This document shows positions 37,585 through 49,202 of a stretch of DNA of 64,000 bases, in pieces. A program made the position numbers and the translations under genes. This DNA comes from Serpula lacrymans var. lacrymans S7.9 (Eukaryota > Basidiomycota > Agaricomycetes > Boletales > Serpulaceae). A model generated the notes under the pieces. That model saw nothing but the letters and a program-made list of their open reading frames with translations, had not been told where the DNA came from and made no database searches. The first letter of the stretch is position 1. Each line of letters starts with the position of its first letter. The stretch covers positions 1,386,655 to 1,450,654 of the forward strand of contig NW_006763300.1 of the NCBI RefSeq assembly GCF_000218685.1, read 5' to 3'.

Positions 37585-38923
37585 GTCGTGATGTATTTGT
37601 CTTCATATTTTGAAGTTATTTCACCTTTTTTCTTCGAGAAAATTGAGCCTGTGTAACAATTGCGTGCCAGGATATGTATCCTTACATGTTTTACACTTGT
37701 AATCAAATTGAGTTACTGTATCCTTCTTTTTCATCATCTCTCTTTGTAACCATGAATCCAAATGGCCTCGGTAATAAATCAAGTTTCATTGAATGCTTCA
37801 AGTAAAGATAGTATTCACGGTAGCTAAAGGAGAGTCTGTTAAGTTGATATCAAAGACATTTTATAACCGGCATATTGCATCCAGGGCTCTGACGGACTTG
37901 GTTGGCTACCCCAGAATCAGGTGCGGATAGGACAGGAGTAGTCTCCTTCATCCAACCGAATCATTGACATGACAGTCGATATCAACGTAGGACAGAAGGG
38001 AGTGTTCGATCGGTAGTACGCTTCGTATTCATAGTTGCCTTTACGCGACCATGCTCCTCAAAGTGGCGGGTCCTCTTAATTTCGCACAATACCTGCAACC
38101 TGGAGGGACTGGTGGCAAAACCGCAAACGGATGACCGATACAAACAGTTGATACCAACGAACCTTTTTGAAAGACTAATCAGCCTAGAAACCTGCTCACG
38201 GTAATGGGGAGTCACCTGACCAGAATCGATGCTTGCTGGACAAGTACTTCTGCCAAAACAGATGGGGAGCAGGATTTCCGCCAAATCAGATATCCAGCAA
38301 GTGGGTAACCTCCCAAGTTACATAGATACGTACCGCGTAAACAGTTGGATGTCGTTAATAAGTCAGGTTATAAACCTTTCCTTGTGAAAATCTGCGCTGT
38401 CTAGCGGTCCAAGTTAGTCCATGGTCTCACACCTGTGGGATCAACAGCACTATTATGAAACCATATCCTAACCGTACGAGGGAGTTCGAGAGCCTCAACA
38501 CATACACGTGAGCCTCGATGAAGAGAAAAATAAATATCAGGAATCGACAAAGACGGAAGTGGAGGTCCCTTCCTTATGAACTACAGGTCTGCACATGTGA
38601 GGGCGTGCACATGAAACAGCTGGACATATGTCCATAAGGATTCACATATAAATTGTTGCGGAGACACGATGACTTGAGGAGAACCTTGAAACGGGACACC
38701 ATGAGCGTGTAAGAACCTGACCCGTGATCAACGTAACAAGTCACGAGGACAGAAAGTCATCCTGTACGGGTGAACCGCGCCGCTGATCGTCTTCGCAGTG
38801 ATACGACAATTTTCCGCGAAATTAAGCTGGGTATAATCGCAGGCAACCCCAATATTAGAACGCATTCACAGATGAATAAAGAGTCTGACCATCACGAATG
38901 CAAAATGTAAACTATTGTGCACC
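37585..38923. other. intergenic, nothing recognised
   Basis: About 1.3 kb. One 100-codon minus frame (37982-38284) without a domain. I looked for transposon ends and tRNA signals and found none I trust. Confidence 0.4.
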
Positions 38924-40048
38924 ATGCCTCGTCTTCAGCATCTGAAAATCGCCTGTACTTTGCTTGCCTTAGCCCCACTCTCGTTGGCAAAGGGAGTGCT
39001 GCCAGGACAGATCAAAAATTTCGTCACCTTCGGCGACTCGTATACAGATATCGCCTACCCTGCTGCTGATGGAGGACAAGCGTGGCCAGTTTATGCAGCT
39101 GGCTATGGAAACTTCACTTTATACCCCTTTGCAAAGAGCGGAGCGACCTGTTCGAACAATTTGACGTATAGGCCATTCCCTCCTGTATTTGGAAGCCAGA
39201 TACCAACATATTTAGAAGAGAAATCAAACGCGACAATTAACCCAAATCCCGAGGAAACCATATACACCTTGTGGATTGGTACGAATGACTTGGGCGTAAA
39301 TGCGCTCCTCACGGGAAGCGATGCGCCCGATGTGTCGATAGTTCAAGTCAGAGAATGTGCTGTGGACTGGCTCAAAGTTATGTATGCCAGCGGAGCCAGG
39401 AACTTCATCATGCAAAACGTGAGTAAAGGCAATAATACCATAGGGAAGAACTCTACGCTAACAATATTTCAAGATTATACCACTCGACCTGACAATCTTG
39501 TACTCGAATTACTCATACCCCAATCGTTACTGGGATGCGCAACGGAATACCACCGAGTGGAACGTATACATGAGGGAACTTGCAAAGGCAGGCAATGAGA
39601 TAACTCTGTTGATGCTACAAGCTCTTGCTCCCACTTTGCCAGACGCTCACATCGGTAAGTCGCAGGTTAATCCACGATATGGCTACCAAACTCACTGTTC
39701 GAGTACAGCTTCGTTCGACTCACATGGCCTTTTCACCGATATGTACAACCACCCACAGAACTACCTCAATGGTACCGCACCCCTGAATGTGACAGGCTGC
39801 GTTAACTCGTGCATCTTTGCTTTGAACGAGAGCACTGGTGATGCCGGCGATTGCACAGTCGCGGAAGGTACAGACCGTGACAGCTTCCTGTGGTAAGATC
39901 TCTTCATCTTTGGTGCATTTTCAATTCTGATACCTTGGACAGGTACGACGAGCTCCACCCGTCCGAACAATCAGATAGGATTGTGGCGCGTGAGATAACA
40001 GCAGTTATGAAGGGTGAAGAGAACCAGTGGGTGACGTGGTTGAGTTGA
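38924..40048 (+). CDS. secreted SGNH/GDSL esterase, CE16-like
   Basis: ATG at 38924 (MPRLQHLKIACTLLALAP) opens a signal peptide. The serine block NFVTFGDSYTDIAYP carries the nucleophile in G-D-S-Y. Then come FAKSGATCSNN (block II Gly), YTLWIGTNDLGVNALL (block III G-T-N-D) and, after the last intron, YDELHPSEQSDRIV with the Asp and His of the triad. About 315 residues and four exons, with several N-glycosylation sequons. CE16 members of wood- and litter-degrading fungi remove acetyl groups from hemicellulose oligomers. The Asp-x-x-His spacing and blocks are intact, so it should be active. Confidence 0.88.
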
Positions 40049-40924
40049 GCTGCTGGCAAGGAAGGGTCACTGGCAGTTGTTCCACAATCATAGGATAAAT
40101 TTCCTTGGACAATATTATGCCCGTAGAACGATTGATCAGAAGACCTGAAACTTTGACAAGTGGTCCACATTATTCGAAAGGGATCATGGTTATGTGGTAA
40201 TATGCCATACCACACTATCATCAGCACACTGTCCGCAAAGAGCGAGTGCTTTTTACTGGCTGACCATTGCGTCTTGTTTCAAGTTAATTATGCCGTCTAG
40301 CCTCTACTAATATTCTAGCGTAATTCCAACACTTGTACAAGGATGGGGTCTCAATTGTAATATCTACTAATCCGAAACACAAAGGACAAAGGACACTCGG
40401 GGTATTGGCAAGGCACTCGAGGACTCAAGTTGGTAAAGAAAATGTTCAGTTCAATTACAGATAATTCACAACCTTGTCGGTGGCGAATGTGTAAAATCTA
40501 TCTTCTGCTGAATCCATTCATGGTGACTGCCTAGCAAGCGGCTTTGTTGTGAACGCATCCGTAATTTCACTGGCACAATGTCTTTAAACCATGAATGACC
40601 ATCGAGGTCTAACAATTCAGAATACAAAAGCATCAGTCGACATACAAACAACGGATACATGGCAAGAGAAGAAAAATCAAAGAAAACACGCCTTATTCCC
40701 ACCCTCAGCCCTTCATCCCATCTCCCTCTCCCTCTCGCCATTTCAATCTGCCCATTTATCGATCGTTTCATCACCCAAAGTCTATCACCCACAATCCATC
40801 CTACAGAAATCCCGAAAAGGACCCCAGATCGCCTCCAAGCGTACCTAAAAATAAAAATCTGAAGCCGCACACACAGGCACCATGAGCCACATCCTGCTCG
40901 CCCACCCACAATGAGCAGGGTACC
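40049..40924. other. convergent intergenic region
   Basis: About 0.88 kb between the esterase stop (plus) and the last codon of the NACHT gene (minus). A 147-codon minus frame (40466-40909) lies just downstream of the NACHT stop in another phase and is Arg/Trp-rich; I regard it as 3' UTR. Confidence 0.4.
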
Positions 40925-43900
40925 TTAACGCGCCCTTCTGGCATACCCCCGACTACGACCTTGCAAGTATTGCGGCGGTTGTCCTATGGGAAAATGACAA
41001 TATATATGAATTAGCTACTTCACAGCATAGCTCGAGCTGATGCTAGGAACTAACCGCCAAAGGCCTGCAGAGTAGGTGTATTTTCCATCGGCTCCTTCTG
41101 TAATCGCTCCTCATGACGCCCTTGCTGTAGTGGTAAGAGATTTTAGGGACATTGTCAAATATATATATAGTTCACATACTCGCTATTGATCAAGCATGTC
41201 ACATGCACAACATTGAGCTAATTTCATGAGGTCAAGATGAAACGAACCACACACCCACTAGGAAGTTAAAATGATTAGCTATTCAAAAATATATCTCGAC
41301 AGTATATACATACTTTCTGCAAGGAAAAATAAAGAATATCATATACATTAGTGCCGAACGTAAGAAGATTATGAAACAAATTTATCCGTACATTCTAAAG
41401 ATTTCCGCGCAAAATGAATATGTTTGTAAAGTTTGACGAGATATGATGGAAAATGACAAAACATACGATCTGCGGTGCGAGAAAGTTAGTGAAATGCTCT
41501 CGCACAATGCAAGGAATGTCCCCAACCATCTTCAGGTCCAGATTCGTATATACTCAGTATTGGCTGCATAGCACAGATGCTGCAAGAGGGAAAATGTTTA
41601 AATGGAATAAATCCGTAGAGAAGTAAACGATGCACTTGCATTAGGAAACGACACACCTCGCGGAGTTTCTGATGACACATTGGTGATTAGTATGCAGGCT
41701 CATTAGCAGGACACGAACACCAGCTTACGGCCTAGAAATTGAGCAAAACATTATTTGTGCGTGAAAAAAAAAGATGCATATAAAAGAACAAATGCAGCGT
41801 ACGTCCTGAGATCATCATGGGCACAAGAACAAGTAAAGGGTATCAGAGAGAGAGCCAAAGCATAATAAAAAAGGCAACGAAAAGGCATACAGGCTGAGAA
41901 TGTCAAGGAGGGCATGACAGTCAGTGCCAAAGCTAGCAAAAAAAGATTGAGAGCGACTCACATCCTAAGAATGTCAAGAAGGGCCTAACAGTTAGTGCCA
42001 AAACTGTCTACAAGGGGGCCGAGGGCGACGTACTCCCTGGAATGTCAACGAGGGCATGACGGTCAGTGCCAAAACTGGCTAAAAAGATCGAGAGCGGCGT
42101 ACAGTCTGAGAATGTCAAAAGGGACTGACAGTCAGTGCCAAAACTGGCTACAAAAAGACCGAGAGCGACGTACAACCTGGGAGTGTCGAGGAGGGGATGA
42201 CGGTCAGTGCCAAATCTGACTAAATAAGATCGAGAACGACGTACGATCTGAGAATGTCAAGGAGAGCCTGACAGTCAGTGCCAAGCCTGGTTAAAAAGAT
42301 TGAGAACGACTTACATACTGAGAATGCCAACGAGGGCACAACAGTCAGTGCCAAATCAGACTAAATAAGAGCAAGAGGGACGTACATTCTGAGAGCGTCC
42401 ACGAGGGCATGACAGTCAGTGCCAAATCTGACTAGATAAAATCGAGAATGACGTACATTCTGAGAGAGTCCAGGAGGGCTGACAATTAATGCTCAATCTG
42501 GCTAAATAAGGTTGAGAGGGACGTACAGGCTGAAAAGGTTATCATGAAATTGTGGTTGTGGAGCGGTTAATGGGCAGTTGTTAGGGTAGTATATGAATGT
42601 GTATTCGATGAATATCATCACAATGTCAGTAGCAACCCTTGCACGAAACGGGAACATGACCGCGTACGTTCTAATGATAACATGTGGTAGGGCAGCAATG
42701 GTAAGCGGCATGGAGCATTTCCAGTGGATTATCGAGCACGTACAATATCGTAGAACTGTCAGAACACAATGCAATAATCAGAAAATCCAGCAAGATATAT
42801 ATCGTCTATAACCATTTACCTTCTAAAGAACGGCAAGCGTATAAAGCCTTAGCAGAAAGCCTCACAGGAAGAATTCTTGAGTAACGCACCCCCTGAAAAT
42901 TTATATTTAAAAATAAAAGCATTTAATATAACAAAAGCACGTCAGAGTGTAGCGTGATCGGATGGGTTAATAACGCACAAACTGGCTCAGTACACTCATC
43001 AGCCTTTCGTATCTCAGATATTTGTCATGTAGATACTATGTTACTTACATCCTGTTTGTGCAGCCAGCTCCTTTAAATATAATATGGGGGTATATTAAAA
43101 TGACATACATTCTGTGTATAGTGGGGGTACATTAGCTCGGTTTCAACGCCCTTGTTTTCAACTGACTTACTTTCTGCCGAGCCGGTTGCACCAATAAAAA
43201 ATTGGGTCAATAACCATCTATCGCGAAATATTGTCACGCACAGCCTAGTCATGTGCCAGAGTTACAAAAGGTGGGATATAAGCATCTTGTGTAAGATACA
43301 AAAAATATACACACATTCTGAAATGTTTTGTTGGGAGAAAAAGTTCAAGACGCTTTTGTCATCATGAATCGGAAACAATCTCGTACTTCTGTTTGCTCAA
43401 TCATGTTAATGAGACTCCCTAGTGCCAAACGTAAATGCCGGGGGTATCGCAGCCACTCCTGCACCAAATTTGCATTAGATATGTCTCGCATAATTATTCT
43501 AGCTTACCTCCATCCGTGTCTTCATTCCTAAGTATTGCCTTGGTGGTCCATCTCGGATGATAGTATATACCCAAGAAGCGAATACATTACTATTAGTGGC
43601 GAAATCCGTTAGAGACCTGCTTAGTGAAACAGAAAGAGATGACTCTGAATGGTAACTCTCCCAACCATCAACAGCCTGCCAAAGGTGGTACAGACAATTC
43701 TTTGTGATAGAAGCATGGCAGTCAGAGGGGTTAGTGAAATAGACAGCCGAGCGTGATTCTGTCGTTAGAAAATCCCGGAGCGATGTGTGGACTAGGTGCA
43801 CTGGACGGTCGTCAGCTTCGGGAATAAGTAGAATGGATTGAATCCCGAGGAAAGACCTGACAAGGTTTCGCGGCGGTACATCCATCAGGAGAGCTAGGTC

Positions 43901-45240
43901 CCGGATGGACAACTGTTTTTCGAGATGTAACAGGGTTCCCATTGCCCACTTGAGGTCAACAACGCTTCCAGGTGCAACTTCAGAAGATACAGCACTGGAG
44001 AAAACCTGTATATATAGAGGATCCAGACCATGTGCCTTCAAGGCCTCTAGAAGTTGTTGGTGCGCCATCCCCCCCGCTTGCCGAACAAATTTGACGAATG
44101 TCGATGCATAGATATAGGAGCCATTAGCTTCACCAACCAGGGTATTAAGAACGTCCCACGAAGGCCAAGGCTCCGGTACACCATCCGCAACCATGAGTAG
44201 GCGATTGGCGGCATATATATCCGCAAATTCGGACTGGAAGAACATGCGAATGTCCTTTCTAGCGTCGTAATGCTGCAATTTCAGCTGAAGGGAGACCTTC
44301 TTGGCATCTATAGTTTCAAGTTTTAAGCGAAGGTGTTCCTCAACTCTACTTGTGATAAATAGACGAAACGGGACCCGGCCTCCCTTGGACTTGCACGCAT
44401 CAATCACAGCATCGATGAACTCGTCCATCGATTCTCCGTCCCCAACTTCACATTCATCGAGGGCGTCAATAACTATCACCATGCATTTTTGTGCAGCATT
44501 GTTCTGCGTAAATGTTGAGCGGGCATGGGAGAGCATGGGGGTCATGATTAGCTTGTCAAATTGGTAGCTGAGCGGAGTATGCTGCTGGGTGAGGAAGGGT
44601 TCTTTGTCGAGGGCATCCCGGATCAACAGTTCCATGTTTTCAACTGTAGTTGAGAGCTGAAAAGCGAGCGTAGAAATCAGGTGGGATATCTTGTCTCGGT
44701 TTCCTGTCCCCCGAAAGAAGAAAAAGCTGGCAGCAAGCCTCCCTTCGCTAGCACACCACTCTGCTACGCTCTGCGCTATGGTCGACTTCCCCGACCGAGC
44801 GAAGCCATTAAGCCAGCAAATTGGAAGAGTACCATCTGTCCACGATTTGATCTCGTTCAGGACTTCCTTGCGAGTGCCTTCCAAACATCGAGCGAGTTTC
44901 CCTGAGCGATCCTTGTACGAAGCCTGCACTGGGTGTATTATATCGTATAAGCTCGGCACAGCTGACCGCGAATGATTGAGCTTGCTATTTAAGACGGATA
45001 AAGACCACGCACGGTAGAATCTATTATTGTTATTGATGTTCTGTTCGACGTGTTGAGCACTTCCAAAGTCGGTAAGAACACAGTCCTGGAGTCGGGCATT
45101 GTTGGACCAGTTTAGTAGACCAGCAGGAGGTGCTGGAGAGGGATGTTGGTTAAGATTGTTAGAACCTTCACTGTCATCGGAAGCTGTAAATGTGGCTTGT
45201 GTTGATGATACTTACCAGGTCGTTTCCCAAAAGAAGACAT
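40925..45240 (-). CDS. NACHT-domain NLR-like protein with micro-exon 3' part
   Basis: Model: exon 45240-45216 (MSSFGKRP), exon 45183-43508, exon 43458-43387 (72 nt), 29 micro-exons (43317-41176), exons 41124-41055 and 40983-40925. Frame is kept throughout; about 668 residues. Walker A GFARSGKST lies near residues 135-143 and Walker B MVIVIDALDECE near 243-254. Then come FRLFITSRVEEHL, SYIYASTFVKF, a winged-helix-like RDLALLMDVPPRNLVRSFLG and HLVHTSLRDFLT, the usual agaricomycete NACHT layout. The N-terminus (about 85 residues) is Asn-rich with no known effector domain, and no WD40, ankyrin or TPR sensor follows. Instead the C-terminal tail runs from WLRYPRHLRLALGSL through the micro-exon codons to GGQPPQYLQGRSRGYARRAR and a TAA. 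The NACHT call is firm; the micro-exon model rests on splice-site reading and needs RNA. Possible role: non-self recognition or regulated cell death. Confidence 0.72.
41176..43317 (-). other. cluster of 29 micro-exons (27 of 3 nt, 2 of 12 nt) in the NACHT gene
   Basis: Each listed codon is preceded by AG and followed by GT on the minus strand. First bases (lower coordinate): 43315 AAT, 43242 GCT, 43171 AAA, 43109 AAT, 43049 GAT, 42983 CCA (weakest), 42890 GGG, 42820 AAG, 42744 (12 nt, FYDI), 42668 AAC, 42527 CCT, 42457 AAT, 42386 AAT, 42315 TAT, 42245 ATC, 42174 GTT, 42103 ACT, 42034 GGA, 41962 GAT, 41891 CCT, 41803 GAC, 41729 GCC, 41657 (12 nt, KLRE), 41527 ATG, 41467 ATC, 41392 AAT, 41314 AAA, 41255 TGG, 41176 TAT. 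All junctions are phase 0, and none of the codons is a stop. Most intervening introns are 57-88 nt; five are longer (108-139 nt). Confidence 0.55.
41894..42526 (-). repeat. tandem array of nine near-identical intron-sized units, period 69-72 bp
   Basis: On the minus strand each unit starts GTACGTC (variants GTAAGTC, GTGAGTC, GTACGCC). It has a pyrimidine tract, then CAGTTTTGGCACTGACTGTC or a close variant in the middle, and ends CTTGACATTCTCAG or close to it. Units are 66-69 nt and separated by exactly 3 nt, giving unit-to-unit steps of 71, 72, 69, 71, 71, 70, 71, 71 and 70. Each therefore has a 5' splice site, a CTGAC/TTGAC branch-like element and a YAG end. Flanking older introns outside the array keep only traces (for example CTGGCACATGACTAG before 43245). 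Confidence 0.85.
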
Positions 45241-46760: not shown

Positions 46761-49202
46761 ATGTCGTATAGCAAAGTTATCAGTGGCGTCGCTGGAAGTA
46801 TTGCTGGCATTATGCTGTTCCAGCTACTTAGCTTTTACTTAATGAAGCCCAAAAAAAAGGATGGCATTAATCACAGCCCCCCTGGTCACATGCCTAGCCG
46901 CTCTTCCAATGAAGATGTGGCAGTTGACGTCGACGAGGACACAGTCACCTCATTTCAGCAGTCATCCACCGACTACGACGGAGCCACACATAATTTTCCA
47001 TTGGACGTTACAACTTCAAATGCAGGAGCATCCATCATCCCCGGAGAGAATGCTCCTCTTTGTTCGACTTGCACAGAACTAGATTTCCATCTGATCCTCC
47101 GCAATGGGATCCCAAGGGAAAGCGCGATCTCACTCGGCCCTCTCACAGGCATCATACAAAGAGCTGGTCAGTGCGGTTTCTGCCGTCTTGCGTCTATTGT
47201 CATCCGTCGAACATGGCTTCTGGATGAACACCCGCATGTCGACCTCTCTGAAATTCAGTGCTCGCTGTATTCGATGGACTGTGGTTGTTTACAGGATCCT
47301 GCACCTGCGCCAAAGGAATTATGCCATCGCTTTTACATTCAGCCTTCAGATCGGCCACGGGAGATCTATGATGCTATGCTTGCAGCAAACACAGGGCTTA
47401 TGCTAGATATCCAGCTCTTAGAGGAAGATGCTTGCAACAATGAAAGAACGGAGGAGCTTCATGGGAGGAGAGTGGGAGATACTATCGACATAGGACTCGT
47501 GAAAAAGTGGCTTGATCTTTGTGAGAGGGAACACGGTGACGTCTGCGAATCTGTGTGGTGGAGGGGTAGTGATAAAAATCTACCTAAGGGCGTGCGGATG
47601 CTAGACGTGACCTGTATGTCTATAGTACATGCACCCCCAGGATGCCGCTATGTAGCCCTGAGCTATCTTTGGGGAGGCATGGGAGCAGAGTATTGGACGA
47701 CGCAGGCTAACTTGAAACAACGGGGTGTGTCCGGTGGTCTTGATATGTCTTCTTTGCCTGGGACGATCACAGACTCAATCCAGCTTGTTCGCCAGCTTGG
47801 CGAACGTTATCTCTGGGTCGACGCTCTTTGCATTATCCAAGACAATTTGAAAGACAAGGCCGTGCAAATTGGTGTCATGGAGCTGATTTATGGCAGCTCC
47901 CTCTTTACGATATTTGCTGCTGGTGGTAGAACCGCTAATTCTCCTCTACCGGGGCTTCGTCCAGGGACTCGCCGGCAGCAACAACACATAGATGTCATCC
48001 AAGGTCTCCATCTTACTGTTCCACTTCCAATGCTTCGTGAGACGCTTACACGGACAGCCTGGGATACACGTGGCTGGACTTTCCAGGAAGTTATGCTCTC
48101 CCGCCGTCGATTATTCTTCACAGACCAGCAAATATATTTCGAGTGTGGGCAGGATGTGTGGTGCGAAGATGTAGTGGCAGAGAGGAAGCGCCAACCACGG
48201 TCTTACCAACCACTACGGTACAACGGTGTAGGGGGTCTTACTTTCCTGCGGACCCCACCAAGCTGGGCCAAAAATGAATATTTATCAAGCTATGCCAGTG
48301 CCGTCGGACTTTACACGCAACGCCAGCTTACTATGGAGTCTGACATAGTCAATGCTATCACAGCACTAACCAATGCATGGACGAAAGGTTTCAAGTTGAA
48401 TGGGGGTGATCCCCGTAAAGCCTTCCGTTTTGGTATGTCAATAACCGACTTGCACACTGTGCTTTTGTGGCAGCCAGAAGCAAATGTAAAACATTATCGA
48501 CGATCAAATGGGGGAATGGGGAGCGCGCCTTGGCCGTCCTGGTCGTGGGCAGGGTGGCGGGGCGCTGTCCACTATGCTGGTAGCGGCCAATACCTCGAAA
48601 TCCACAAGAATACCGAATCTCCACGGCTCTTGGAATCATTGGTCGATCCCTGGTTTATCGTGGACGAAGGTGGGGAAGTAGTTCAGCTGGAAGTCGGGCG
48701 CATGAATCGAGCTACTGCCTACCCAGAAGAAATAGGACCGAGACAGTATTTACCCCCCCAAGGGATTTTCGATCCACTGCAGCTAGGCCTTACGAATGAG
48801 CATCCCCCAGAACCTGGCACCCTTATCTTTCGCACAAGTTCTGCATGGTTCGATATCGCACAAGTCAATAGTGTTAGCTCAAACATTGAAACACATTACG
48901 CTTTCTTCTCCATACTATCAAATATACCATCCCCTTCGACTCGGGTAGGACGGATCATCCTACCCCTTTCCATACGCTCTCCGGCATCTCTCAAATTTAT
49001 TGTTCTTTCTCGGACCAATGGACCCTCGGGCGTGTATGATGAAAACGTTCTAGGGGAACGATATTCTGGGTGTTTCTTGTACGTGATGGCGGTTGAAAAG
49101 AAAGGTGATACTACCATAATGGAGCGCGTCGGAGTTGGTATAATTTTTGAAGGAGCCTGGCTTCAGTCAACTGCAGAAGAGACGGTAGTGTTGCTTGGCT
49201 AA
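46761..49202 (+). CDS. HET-domain protein with N-terminal membrane anchor
   Basis: Single exon, 813 residues. Residues about 6-28 (VISGVAGSIAGIMLFQLLSF) form a transmembrane helix followed by KPKKK, so the body faces the cytosol. An acidic linker and a Cys-containing region (CSTCTELDFH, GQCGFCRLASIV) lead to the HET core: GCRYVALSYLWGG, then LPGTITDSIQLVRQLGERYL, WVDALCIIQDNLKDK and IYGSSLFTIFAAGG. Further on are LTRTAWDTRGWTFQEVMLSR and RRLFFTDQQIYFECGQDVWC. These are the classic heterokaryon-incompatibility blocks. HET proteins trigger regrowth arrest or cell death upon non-self contact; a TIR-like fold is reported. A membrane-anchored HET is uncommon. It is transcribed away from the NACHT gene. 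Confidence 0.9.
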   Translation: MSYSKVISGVAGSIAGIMLFQLLSFYLMKPKKKDGINHSPPGHMPSRSSNEDVAVDVDEDTVTSFQQSSTDYDGATHNFPLDVTTSNAGASIIPGENAPLCSTCTELDFHLILRNGIPRESAISLGPLTGIIQRAGQCGFCRLASIVIRRTWLLDEHPHVDLSEIQCSLYSMDCGCLQDPAPAPKELCHRFYIQPSDRPREIYDAMLAANTGLMLDIQLLEEDACNNERTEELHGRRVGDTIDIGLVKKWLDLCEREHGDVCESVWWRGSDKNLPKGVRMLDVTCMSIVHAPPGCRYVALSYLWGGMGAEYWTTQANLKQRGVSGGLDMSSLPGTITDSIQLVRQLGERYLWVDALCIIQDNLKDKAVQIGVMELIYGSSLFTIFAAGGRTANSPLPGLRPGTRRQQQHIDVIQGLHLTVPLPMLRETLTRTAWDTRGWTFQEVMLSRRRLFFTDQQIYFECGQDVWCEDVVAERKRQPRSYQPLRYNGVGGLTFLRTPPSWAKNEYLSSYASAVGLYTQRQLTMESDIVNAITALTNAWTKGFKLNGGDPRKAFRFGMSITDLHTVLLWQPEANVKHYRRSNGGMGSAPWPSWSWAGWRGAVHYAGSGQYLEIHKNTESPRLLESLVDPWFIVDEGGEVVQLEVGRMNRATAYPEEIGPRQYLPPQGIFDPLQLGLTNEHPPEPGTLIFRTSSAWFDIAQVNSVSSNIETHYAFFSILSNIPSPSTRVGRIILPLSIRSPASLKFIVLSRTNGPSGVYDENVLGERYSGCFLYVMAVEKKGDTTIMERVGVGIIFEGAWLQSTAEETVVLLG

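Follow-up and report, generated by a model that had tools for sequence, protein, structure and literature searches.

Many tiny symmetric exons follow one another in the micro-exon genes of Schistosoma, where skipping is frame-safe and the products are variable. In fungi, NLR sensor domains diversify, and NLRs carry WD40, ANK or TPR repeats under diversifying selection. The diversification of fungal NLR sensor domains is treated in a passage of PMC10197012. The closest described system is the NACHT gene family of the truffle Tuber melanosporum, for which codon-sized, alternatively spliced microexons have been reported (Iotti et al. 2012, PubMed 22289772, as cited in passages of PMC4986451, PMC10197012 and PMC3689799). 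Other papers describe a single-nucleotide exon in Arabidopsis (PMC4674806), a 3-bp exon in Drosophila homothorax (PMC7392893), a one-nucleotide exon in Fusarium CYP621A (PMC12940212) and two 3-nt exons in Dactylellina lipS (PMC5639578). According to the abstract of PMC11121469, functional microexons in filamentous fungi were undescribed before its Trichoderma Xlr2 case, which sits awkwardly beside the Tuber report of 2012. Here, we compare these systems with a NACHT-type gene in a window of 64,000 nt from Serpula lacrymans, by which we mean the whole stretch of DNA that was analyzed. The window is located on contig C11 of the genome that we searched (42.6 Mb, 29 contigs).

Results

A NACHT-type gene model with a tail of one-codon exons

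On the minus strand of the window, AG-NNN-GT sites recur at regular intervals over the roughly 2.2 kb that follow a 72-nt exon, and no frame on this strand exceeds 90 codons there. Our gene model starts with an ATG at 45240. Past its first exon come a NACHT exon and the 72-nt exon; 26 exons of one codon and two of 12 nt make up the series behind them, and two C-terminal exons close the model. Its 33 exons add up to 1953 nt, a multiple of three with a sole, terminal TAA, and would encode 650 amino acids. GT-AG borders are present at 32 of 32 introns, and all exons from the 72-nt exon through a CGA codon are entered in phase 0. The features are listed below in the direction of the gene, together with counterparts at related loci of the same genome (L numbers).

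45216..45240, minus strand: first coding exon in the model (MSSFGKRP); no paralogue match of note
43508..45132, minus strand: NACHT-type (NPHP3_N) exon; Pfam PF24883, E 2.3e-24
43387..43458, minus strand: 72-nt exon EWLRYPRHLRLALGSLINMIEQTE; tblastn matches in L009, L010, L011, L013, L014 and L017, E 0.001-0.08
43315..43317, minus strand: one-codon exon AAT (N); spliced model
43242..43244, minus strand: one-codon exon GCT (A); spliced model
43171..43173, minus strand: one-codon exon AAA (K); spliced model
43109..43111, minus strand: one-codon exon AAT (N); spliced model
43049..43051, minus strand: one-codon exon GAT (D); GAC/GAT at the same place in L009, L010, L014, L017 and L018
42979..42981, minus strand: one-codon exon TTT (F); TTT in L009, L010, L011, L015, L017 and L018, TTG in L014
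42890..42892, minus strand: one-codon exon GGG (G); spliced model
42820..42822, minus strand: one-codon exon AAG (K); spliced model, weak donor gtaaat
42744..42755, minus strand: 12-nt exon TTCTACGATATT (FYDI); FHHI in L009, FHNL in L010, FHSL in L018, FHNF in L029
42668..42670, minus strand: one-codon exon AAC (N); spliced model
41894..42533, minus strand: tandem array of ~71-nt units (intron plus one codon each); Tandem Repeats Finder
42527..42529, minus strand: one-codon exon CCT (P), first of the tandem hypervariable array; Tandem Repeats Finder and model
42457..42459, minus strand: one-codon exon AAT (N), array; spliced model
42386..42388, minus strand: one-codon exon AAT (N), array; spliced model
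42315..42317, minus strand: one-codon exon TAT (Y), array; spliced model
42245..42247, minus strand: one-codon exon ATC (I), array; spliced model
42174..42176, minus strand: one-codon exon GTT (V), array; spliced model
42103..42105, minus strand: one-codon exon ACT (T), array; spliced model
42034..42036, minus strand: one-codon exon GGA (G), array; spliced model
41962..41964, minus strand: one-codon exon GAT (D), array; spliced model
41891..41893, minus strand: one-codon exon CCT (P), array; spliced model
41803..41805, minus strand: one-codon exon GAC (D); spliced model
41729..41731, minus strand: one-codon exon GCC (A); spliced model
41657..41668, minus strand: 12-nt exon AAACTCCGCGAG (KLRE); KIHE in L009, KTRN in L010, EIRK in L011
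41467..41469, minus strand: one-codon exon ATC (I); model and paralogue alignment
41392..41394, minus strand: one-codon exon AAT (N); model and paralogue alignment
41314..41316, minus strand: one-codon exon AAA (K); AAA in L009, L010, L014 and L018, GAA in L011 and L012
41255..41257, minus strand: one-codon exon TGG (W); TGG then CGA/CGG in 7 of 10 arrays
41180..41182, minus strand: one-codon exon CGA (R); CGA also in L009, L010 and L018
41055..41124, minus strand: C-terminal exon QGRHEERLQKEPMENTPTLQAFG; relative RHEEQLQTERM.. in L010, E 0.037
40925..40983, minus strand: last exon GQPPQYLQGRSRGYARRAR plus TAA; no paralogue match of note

The model agrees with most of the architecture put forward in the original prediction: AG and GT bounds with phase 0 for all micro-exons, a frame open from MSSFGKRP to a terminal TAA, and the two 12-nt exons. 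The 27 one-codon exons claimed there become 26 in our count. The last one claimed, AG-TAT-GT at 41178-41176, overlaps the donor of the CGA at 41182-41180, which aligns with CGA in L009, L010 and L018 and is the final one-codon exon of our model. The coding length that closes with the NACHT exon is a multiple of three as proposed, at 1650 nt from the ATG at 45240 in place of the 1701 nt given.

Tandem Repeats Finder reports a 71-nt unit in 9 copies at 41894-42527, with longer periods reaching 42533. Our model treats 41656-41470 as a 187-nt intron, an interval that is poorly resolved; this minus-strand stretch is alignable across five loci and could hold a further exon, and a common splice frame was not found in it. 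The L029 counterpart of the 12-nt KLRE exon reads NIRE and has no GT donor. For the C-terminal exons, the protein search recognizes a relative in L010 only, with a weak E-value. The public model of the gene, P0001, starts elsewhere than at the ATG at 45240 and ends within the first intron past the NACHT exon. A public protein from Serpula lacrymans var. lacrymans S7.3, SERLA73DRAFT_76340, is identical to our query NACHT exon.

The site chain exceeds chance expectation

We counted the strict pattern [CT]AG-N{k}-GTRNG on the minus strand of the region 40900-43520. A spacing of k=3 occurs 25 times, k=12 twice (both 12-nt exons), and any other k between 0 and 15 at most once, and the opposite strand has no k=3 site. 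Across 1000 dinucleotide shuffles of the region, k=3 sites averaged 0.33 and never exceeded 4. The array sites are ~70 nt apart, and the longest chain of sites spaced by 48-95 nt has 12 members, compared with at most 3 in the shuffles and 2 in the remainder of the window. When the tails of 12 family loci are pooled, k=3 gives 225 sites, the remaining spacings in the range 0 to 24 give 2-17 each, and the antisense strand gives 7; a block shuffle of these tails yields 8.1 k=3 sites on average. Chance and antisense explanations are ruled out by these site counts. The 14 array-less stretches around other NACHT matches (L020-L028 and L032-L036, a set that omits five weak NACHT matches, two on C7, one on C10 and two on C14) have no excess of k=3 (51 sites, compared with 36-79 at the other spacings), and none of their chains is longer than 3 sites; the same chain limit applies to the nine more distant NACHT loci among them, L020-L028.

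The central claim of the original prediction, serial 3-nt micro-exons in a NACHT-type gene, is thus strongly supported by 25 strict sites compared with 0.33 and by nine other loci in the same genome. Its statement that no such gene had been described does not hold, since the codon-sized microexons of Tuber melanosporum NACHT genes are in print, as cited by later authors.

A family of arrays

A search of the Serpula genome with the NACHT exon gave 45 matches. Parsing covered the window, L009-L019 and L029, 13 loci in all, and ten of them have arrays, namely the window, L009, L010, L011, L012, L014, L015, L017, L018 and L029, with parser scores of 129-519; arrays are absent in L013, L016 and L019 (scores 10-13). 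The parse of L011 contains 43 one-codon exons. Three of the ten arrays belong to broken-looking copies: the NACHT match of L014 has one TAG, that of L018 has several stops, and L029 has no adjoining NACHT match. Five of the 10 arrays have a 12-nt exon of the form F[HY]xx, and in four a 12-nt exon resembling KxRE was parsed. TGG followed by CGA or CGG, as adjoining one-codon exons near the end, is found in 7 of 10 (the window, L009, L010, L011, L012, L017 and L018). DNA searches with three arrays matched family loci only; these searches missed the array of L015, so that arrays with diverged introns could escape elsewhere and the result is not a full census.

The 253 parsed introns have a median length of 68 nt, with 249 GT-AG and four GC-AG pairs. 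A CTRAY branch-site motif occurs in 141 of 253 introns compared with 34 in shuffles, a count biased upward by the parser, which favors a branch-like motif; some of the introns, moreover, are duplicates of others. The intron limit of the parser, 125 nt, meant that 12 of the 26 one-codon exons of the window were found, and the other 14 are outside the 224 codons analyzed below. The final CAA parsed in L009 and L010 may begin a C-terminal exon. The parse is weak in the 187-nt interval, at weak donors and in the multi-codon exons of L009, L010, L011, L018 and L029.

Several loci depart from the common arrangement. A single 18-nt exon in L012 (NGFADY) and in L014 (NEFISS) takes the place that 3+3+12 nt occupy in the window, L009, L010 and L018. 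Intron loss is a possible but weak reading of this, as the sum of the lengths and one F agree and little else does, and L012 was dropped as evidence for it after inspection of flanking intron landmarks. We also dropped an equation of the L011 codons Y, H, D and V with the 12-nt exon FYDI, as intron landmarks place only the first codon there. The 18- and 27-nt exons parsed between KxRE and K-W-R in L009 and L010 did not align as exons in DNA, and this stretch was treated as a single intron. In L012, a unit with the codon TGT has a GC donor between array codons. L013 (C3:2595400-2605300) has a stop-free NACHT match and just two one-codon sites left, and its array has apparently been lost. The NACHT fragment of L016 and the array of L029 are on the same strand, ~13 kb apart (C6:2525478-2541992), and the start of a long frame in between looks, by eye, like a retroelement integrase; they are perhaps one gene split by an insertion.

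The array codons avoid stops and are hypervariable

There is no stop among the 224 one-codon exons of the ten arrays (L013, L016 and L019, with their scores of 10-13, are excluded from codon counts), and the parse was made without any anti-stop rule. Positional composition predicts 8.2 stops (P ~2e-4) and local composition 10.5 (P ~2e-5). The seven arrays with stop-free NACHT matches have none among 165 codons, compared with an expectation of 5.5 or 7.6 (P ~4e-3 or ~4e-4), and L014, L018 and L029 likewise have 0 of 59, where 2.6-2.9 are expected.

In the central arrays, an intron of ~68 nt and a single codon form a unit repeated in tandem, and within this otherwise conserved unit the variability is highest at codon positions 1 and 2. 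Within-gene entropies at positions 1, 2 and 3 are 1.69, 1.58 and 1.01 bits (87 units from seven arrays, 57 columns), whereas the top flanking intron column reaches 1.27 bits and the AG and GT are near 0. Each unit included is at least 70% alike another unit of its gene over 45 flanking bases, a rule that removed all units of L015 and L017. Arrays of fewer than five units were left out of the entropies and those of fewer than eight out of a further test on realigned introns; L014 is in neither. After realignment, the level of codon position 1 or 2 is attained by 0-2 of the 67-69 intron columns in six arrays, and that of position 3 by 2-41 columns (3 in L010, 2 in L018). In the broken copy L029, 4 and 11 of 68 intron columns reach positions 1 and 2, respectively.

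We paired the closest units (31 disjoint pairs with upstream intron divergence of at most 20%, mean 11.4%). Positions 1, 2 and 3 differ in 21, 17 and 11 pairs; 25 pairs are nonsynonymous, none is synonymous and 6 have identical codons, the zero being little informative if change is saturated. For the 26 pairs from the window and L009-L012, the positions differ in 18, 14 and 9, with 21 nonsynonymous and 5 identical pairs. L029 adds four pairs that were counted apart from the 31, with the codon identical in two, and in L011, the weakest array, it is identical in four of eight. Position 3 also differs more often than the introns do (11 of 31). Taken together, the pattern says that the array codons are probably translated and under selection. 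The variability of codons above that of the near-copied introns beside them, which was absent from the original prediction, is the most telling point.

The NACHT-type domain and its surroundings

The NACHT exon matches the Pfam model NPHP3_N above the cut-off; the Pfam NACHT model itself stays below its own, at 18.2 bits compared with the 26.7 required. The consensus of alignment A1 has a P-loop and a DALDEC motif, and the exon is 61-80% identical to seven paralogues (L002-L008) across most of its length. Pfam recognizes no ankyrin or other repeat domain of the WD40, ANK or TPR class in the spliced 650-residue model at E values up to 1. A database protein search with residues 470-650 had P0001 as its sole match (587 candidates) and missed known paralogues, among them P0002 and P0003, so its silence on array-spanning proteins is weak evidence. 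Among the best 120 of 1367 matches, the NACHT exon has protein relatives in Piloderma, Laccaria and Crucibulum, known here as proteins alone. Across species, the scan of viral contigs gave no relative at the DNA level.

A HET-domain gene (46761-49202, plus strand; Pfam PF06985, E 2.9e-31) stands head to head with the NACHT gene, with modeled starts ~1.5 kb apart, and the two are a possible incompatibility-type pair. Downstream of the array, 38915-39595 (plus strand) is part of a GDSL lipase-like gene (Pfam PF00657, E 3e-5).

Discussion

It is likely that the locus is a NACHT-type, NLR-like gene for a putative receptor, whose tail would be a hypervariable stretch put together codon by codon. 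In fungi, such short introns are spliced out by intron definition. The pre-mRNA would hold short introns in series, mostly 55-90 nt, with one codon between neighbors, and their removal by intron definition, probably from 5' to 3', would append each codon onto an already long upstream exon. No step would then have to recognize a 3-nt exon on its own. As array exons are multiples of three and their introns are in phase 0, a unit skipped or added would leave the frame intact. Recurring end codons (D-F, later K-W-R) would frame the central intron-codon array, joined by the two 12-nt exons in about half of the loci. The array would enlarge by tandem duplication, with selection favoring different amino acids at its codons. 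The product may be a receptor whose tail has recurring ends and, as its sensor, a short hypervariable stretch of roughly 6 to 30 residues.

While the family of site chains, its phase, the avoidance of stops and the variability of the codons can be read directly, we infer splicing, translation and a sensor role. By analogy, we hypothesize that the variable stretch is the sensor, with each codon acting as if it were a separately tunable contact for recognizing foreign matter. A further possibility, to which we give a little less than an even chance, is that each residue of a receptor loop sits in its own intron-bounded cassette, making an antibody-CDR3-like, intron-built diversity device of basidiomycete innate receptors. 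Duplication, deletion, gene conversion of introns or exon skipping would then alter the length and content of the loop in frame, and selection would rewrite residues independently; the origin could be independent of that in truffle or common with it.

A combinatorial version would supplement, and not replace, the codon-by-codon receptor tail: the array would be alternatively spliced, each transcript would carry its own subset of codons, and one gene would give many tails. Each one-codon unit can be kept or skipped in frame, the donors and acceptors of the array closely resemble one another, so that pairing is weakly specified, and codon-sized microexons in Tuber are alternatively spliced according to passages citing Iotti et al. 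2012 (PMC4986451, PMC10197012, PMC3689799). However, consensus sites at every unit fit constitutive inclusion equally well, and we regard this version as tentative, leaning somewhat against it.

Another reading has the NNN hypermutated by a targeted mechanism and not by selection. Several closest pairs indeed show two or three changed codon bases at once, with a divergence of 6-15% in the upstream introns, and position 3 is above the intron level (11 of 31). But random change would strike position 3 as often as positions 1 and 2, which it does not, and would create stops, none of which occurs in 224 codons, making hypermutation alone unlikely. A mutator followed by selection is possible.

The public gene model halts after the NACHT exon and the intron-like unit is plainly tandem-duplicated, as would suit one long intron or a 3' untranslated tail in which AG-NNN-GT marks recursive-splicing steps or relics of duplicated introns. 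Such an arrangement, however, predicts neither stop avoidance (0 of 224) nor more change at codon positions 1 and 2 than at intron sites, does not need exactly 3 nt, as the spike at k=3 would have it, and leaves the recurring 12-nt exons and the terminal W-R unexplained. Together, the lack of stops, hypervariable positions 1 and 2 and nonsynonymous pairs would not fit a neutral NNN in a long intron, and we consider this alternative improbable. Its form as a recursive-splicing intron, with zero net exon content and an NNN free of coding constraint, is disfavored by the 0 of 224 stops and by positions 1 and 2 being the most variable. That splice-like sites arose by chance in intergenic DNA has nothing to recommend it beyond the low information of AG and GT, and with 25 sites compared with 0.33, a chain of 12 compared with at most 3 in 1000 shuffles, and arrays at nine other loci, its probability is practically nil.

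If transcripts confirm the receptor tail, it would contain a very long series of minimal exons, reaching 43 one-codon exons at L011, and would provide a natural test of the smallest exon that the spliceosome handles serially. It would also be a clean system for single-residue selection, because each codon has its own yardstick in the intron beside it. The tail is absent from the public model of the window gene, and similar tails may thus hide in fungal NLRs annotated as sensor-less.

Comparison with known systems

Our open-access literature search found no report of micro-exons or microexons in Serpula, and titles and abstract openings of the open-access literature on 3-nt exons and basidiomycete NACHT microexons mention no such basidiomycete arrays. 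Codon-sized NACHT exons are of a kind already known; the basidiomycete case and the test of codon hypervariability appear new within this search.

Serial tiny symmetric exons are shared with the micro-exon genes of Schistosoma, where exons are mostly 6-36 nt and belong to an unrelated protein family of an animal parasite, whereas most of the serial Serpula exons are one codon long. As in fungal NLRs with WD40, ANK or TPR repeats, a NACHT core is followed by an internally repeated, diversifying region, the putative sensor. Their repeats are protein repeats, whereas the Serpula repeat is an intron plus one codon, and the repetition is therefore absent from the protein. In the reports on Arabidopsis, homothorax, CYP621A and lipS, equally small exons are reported as spliced, with one or two tiny exons per gene in contrast to the serial array and diversifying codons of Serpula.

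Many consecutive 3-nt exons in a NACHT gene, the feature of the Tuber type, are found in Serpula as read from its sequence alone. Both are fungal NACHT families with tens of codon-sized exons, which citing authors link to receptor diversification in Tuber. Tuber is an ascomycete and Serpula a basidiomycete, and the Tuber family is described in the citing passages as NACHT-ANK, whereas the spliced Serpula model has no ankyrin or other repeat at E values up to 1. Hypervariable codons set in near-identical tandem intron-codon units are shown here for Serpula.
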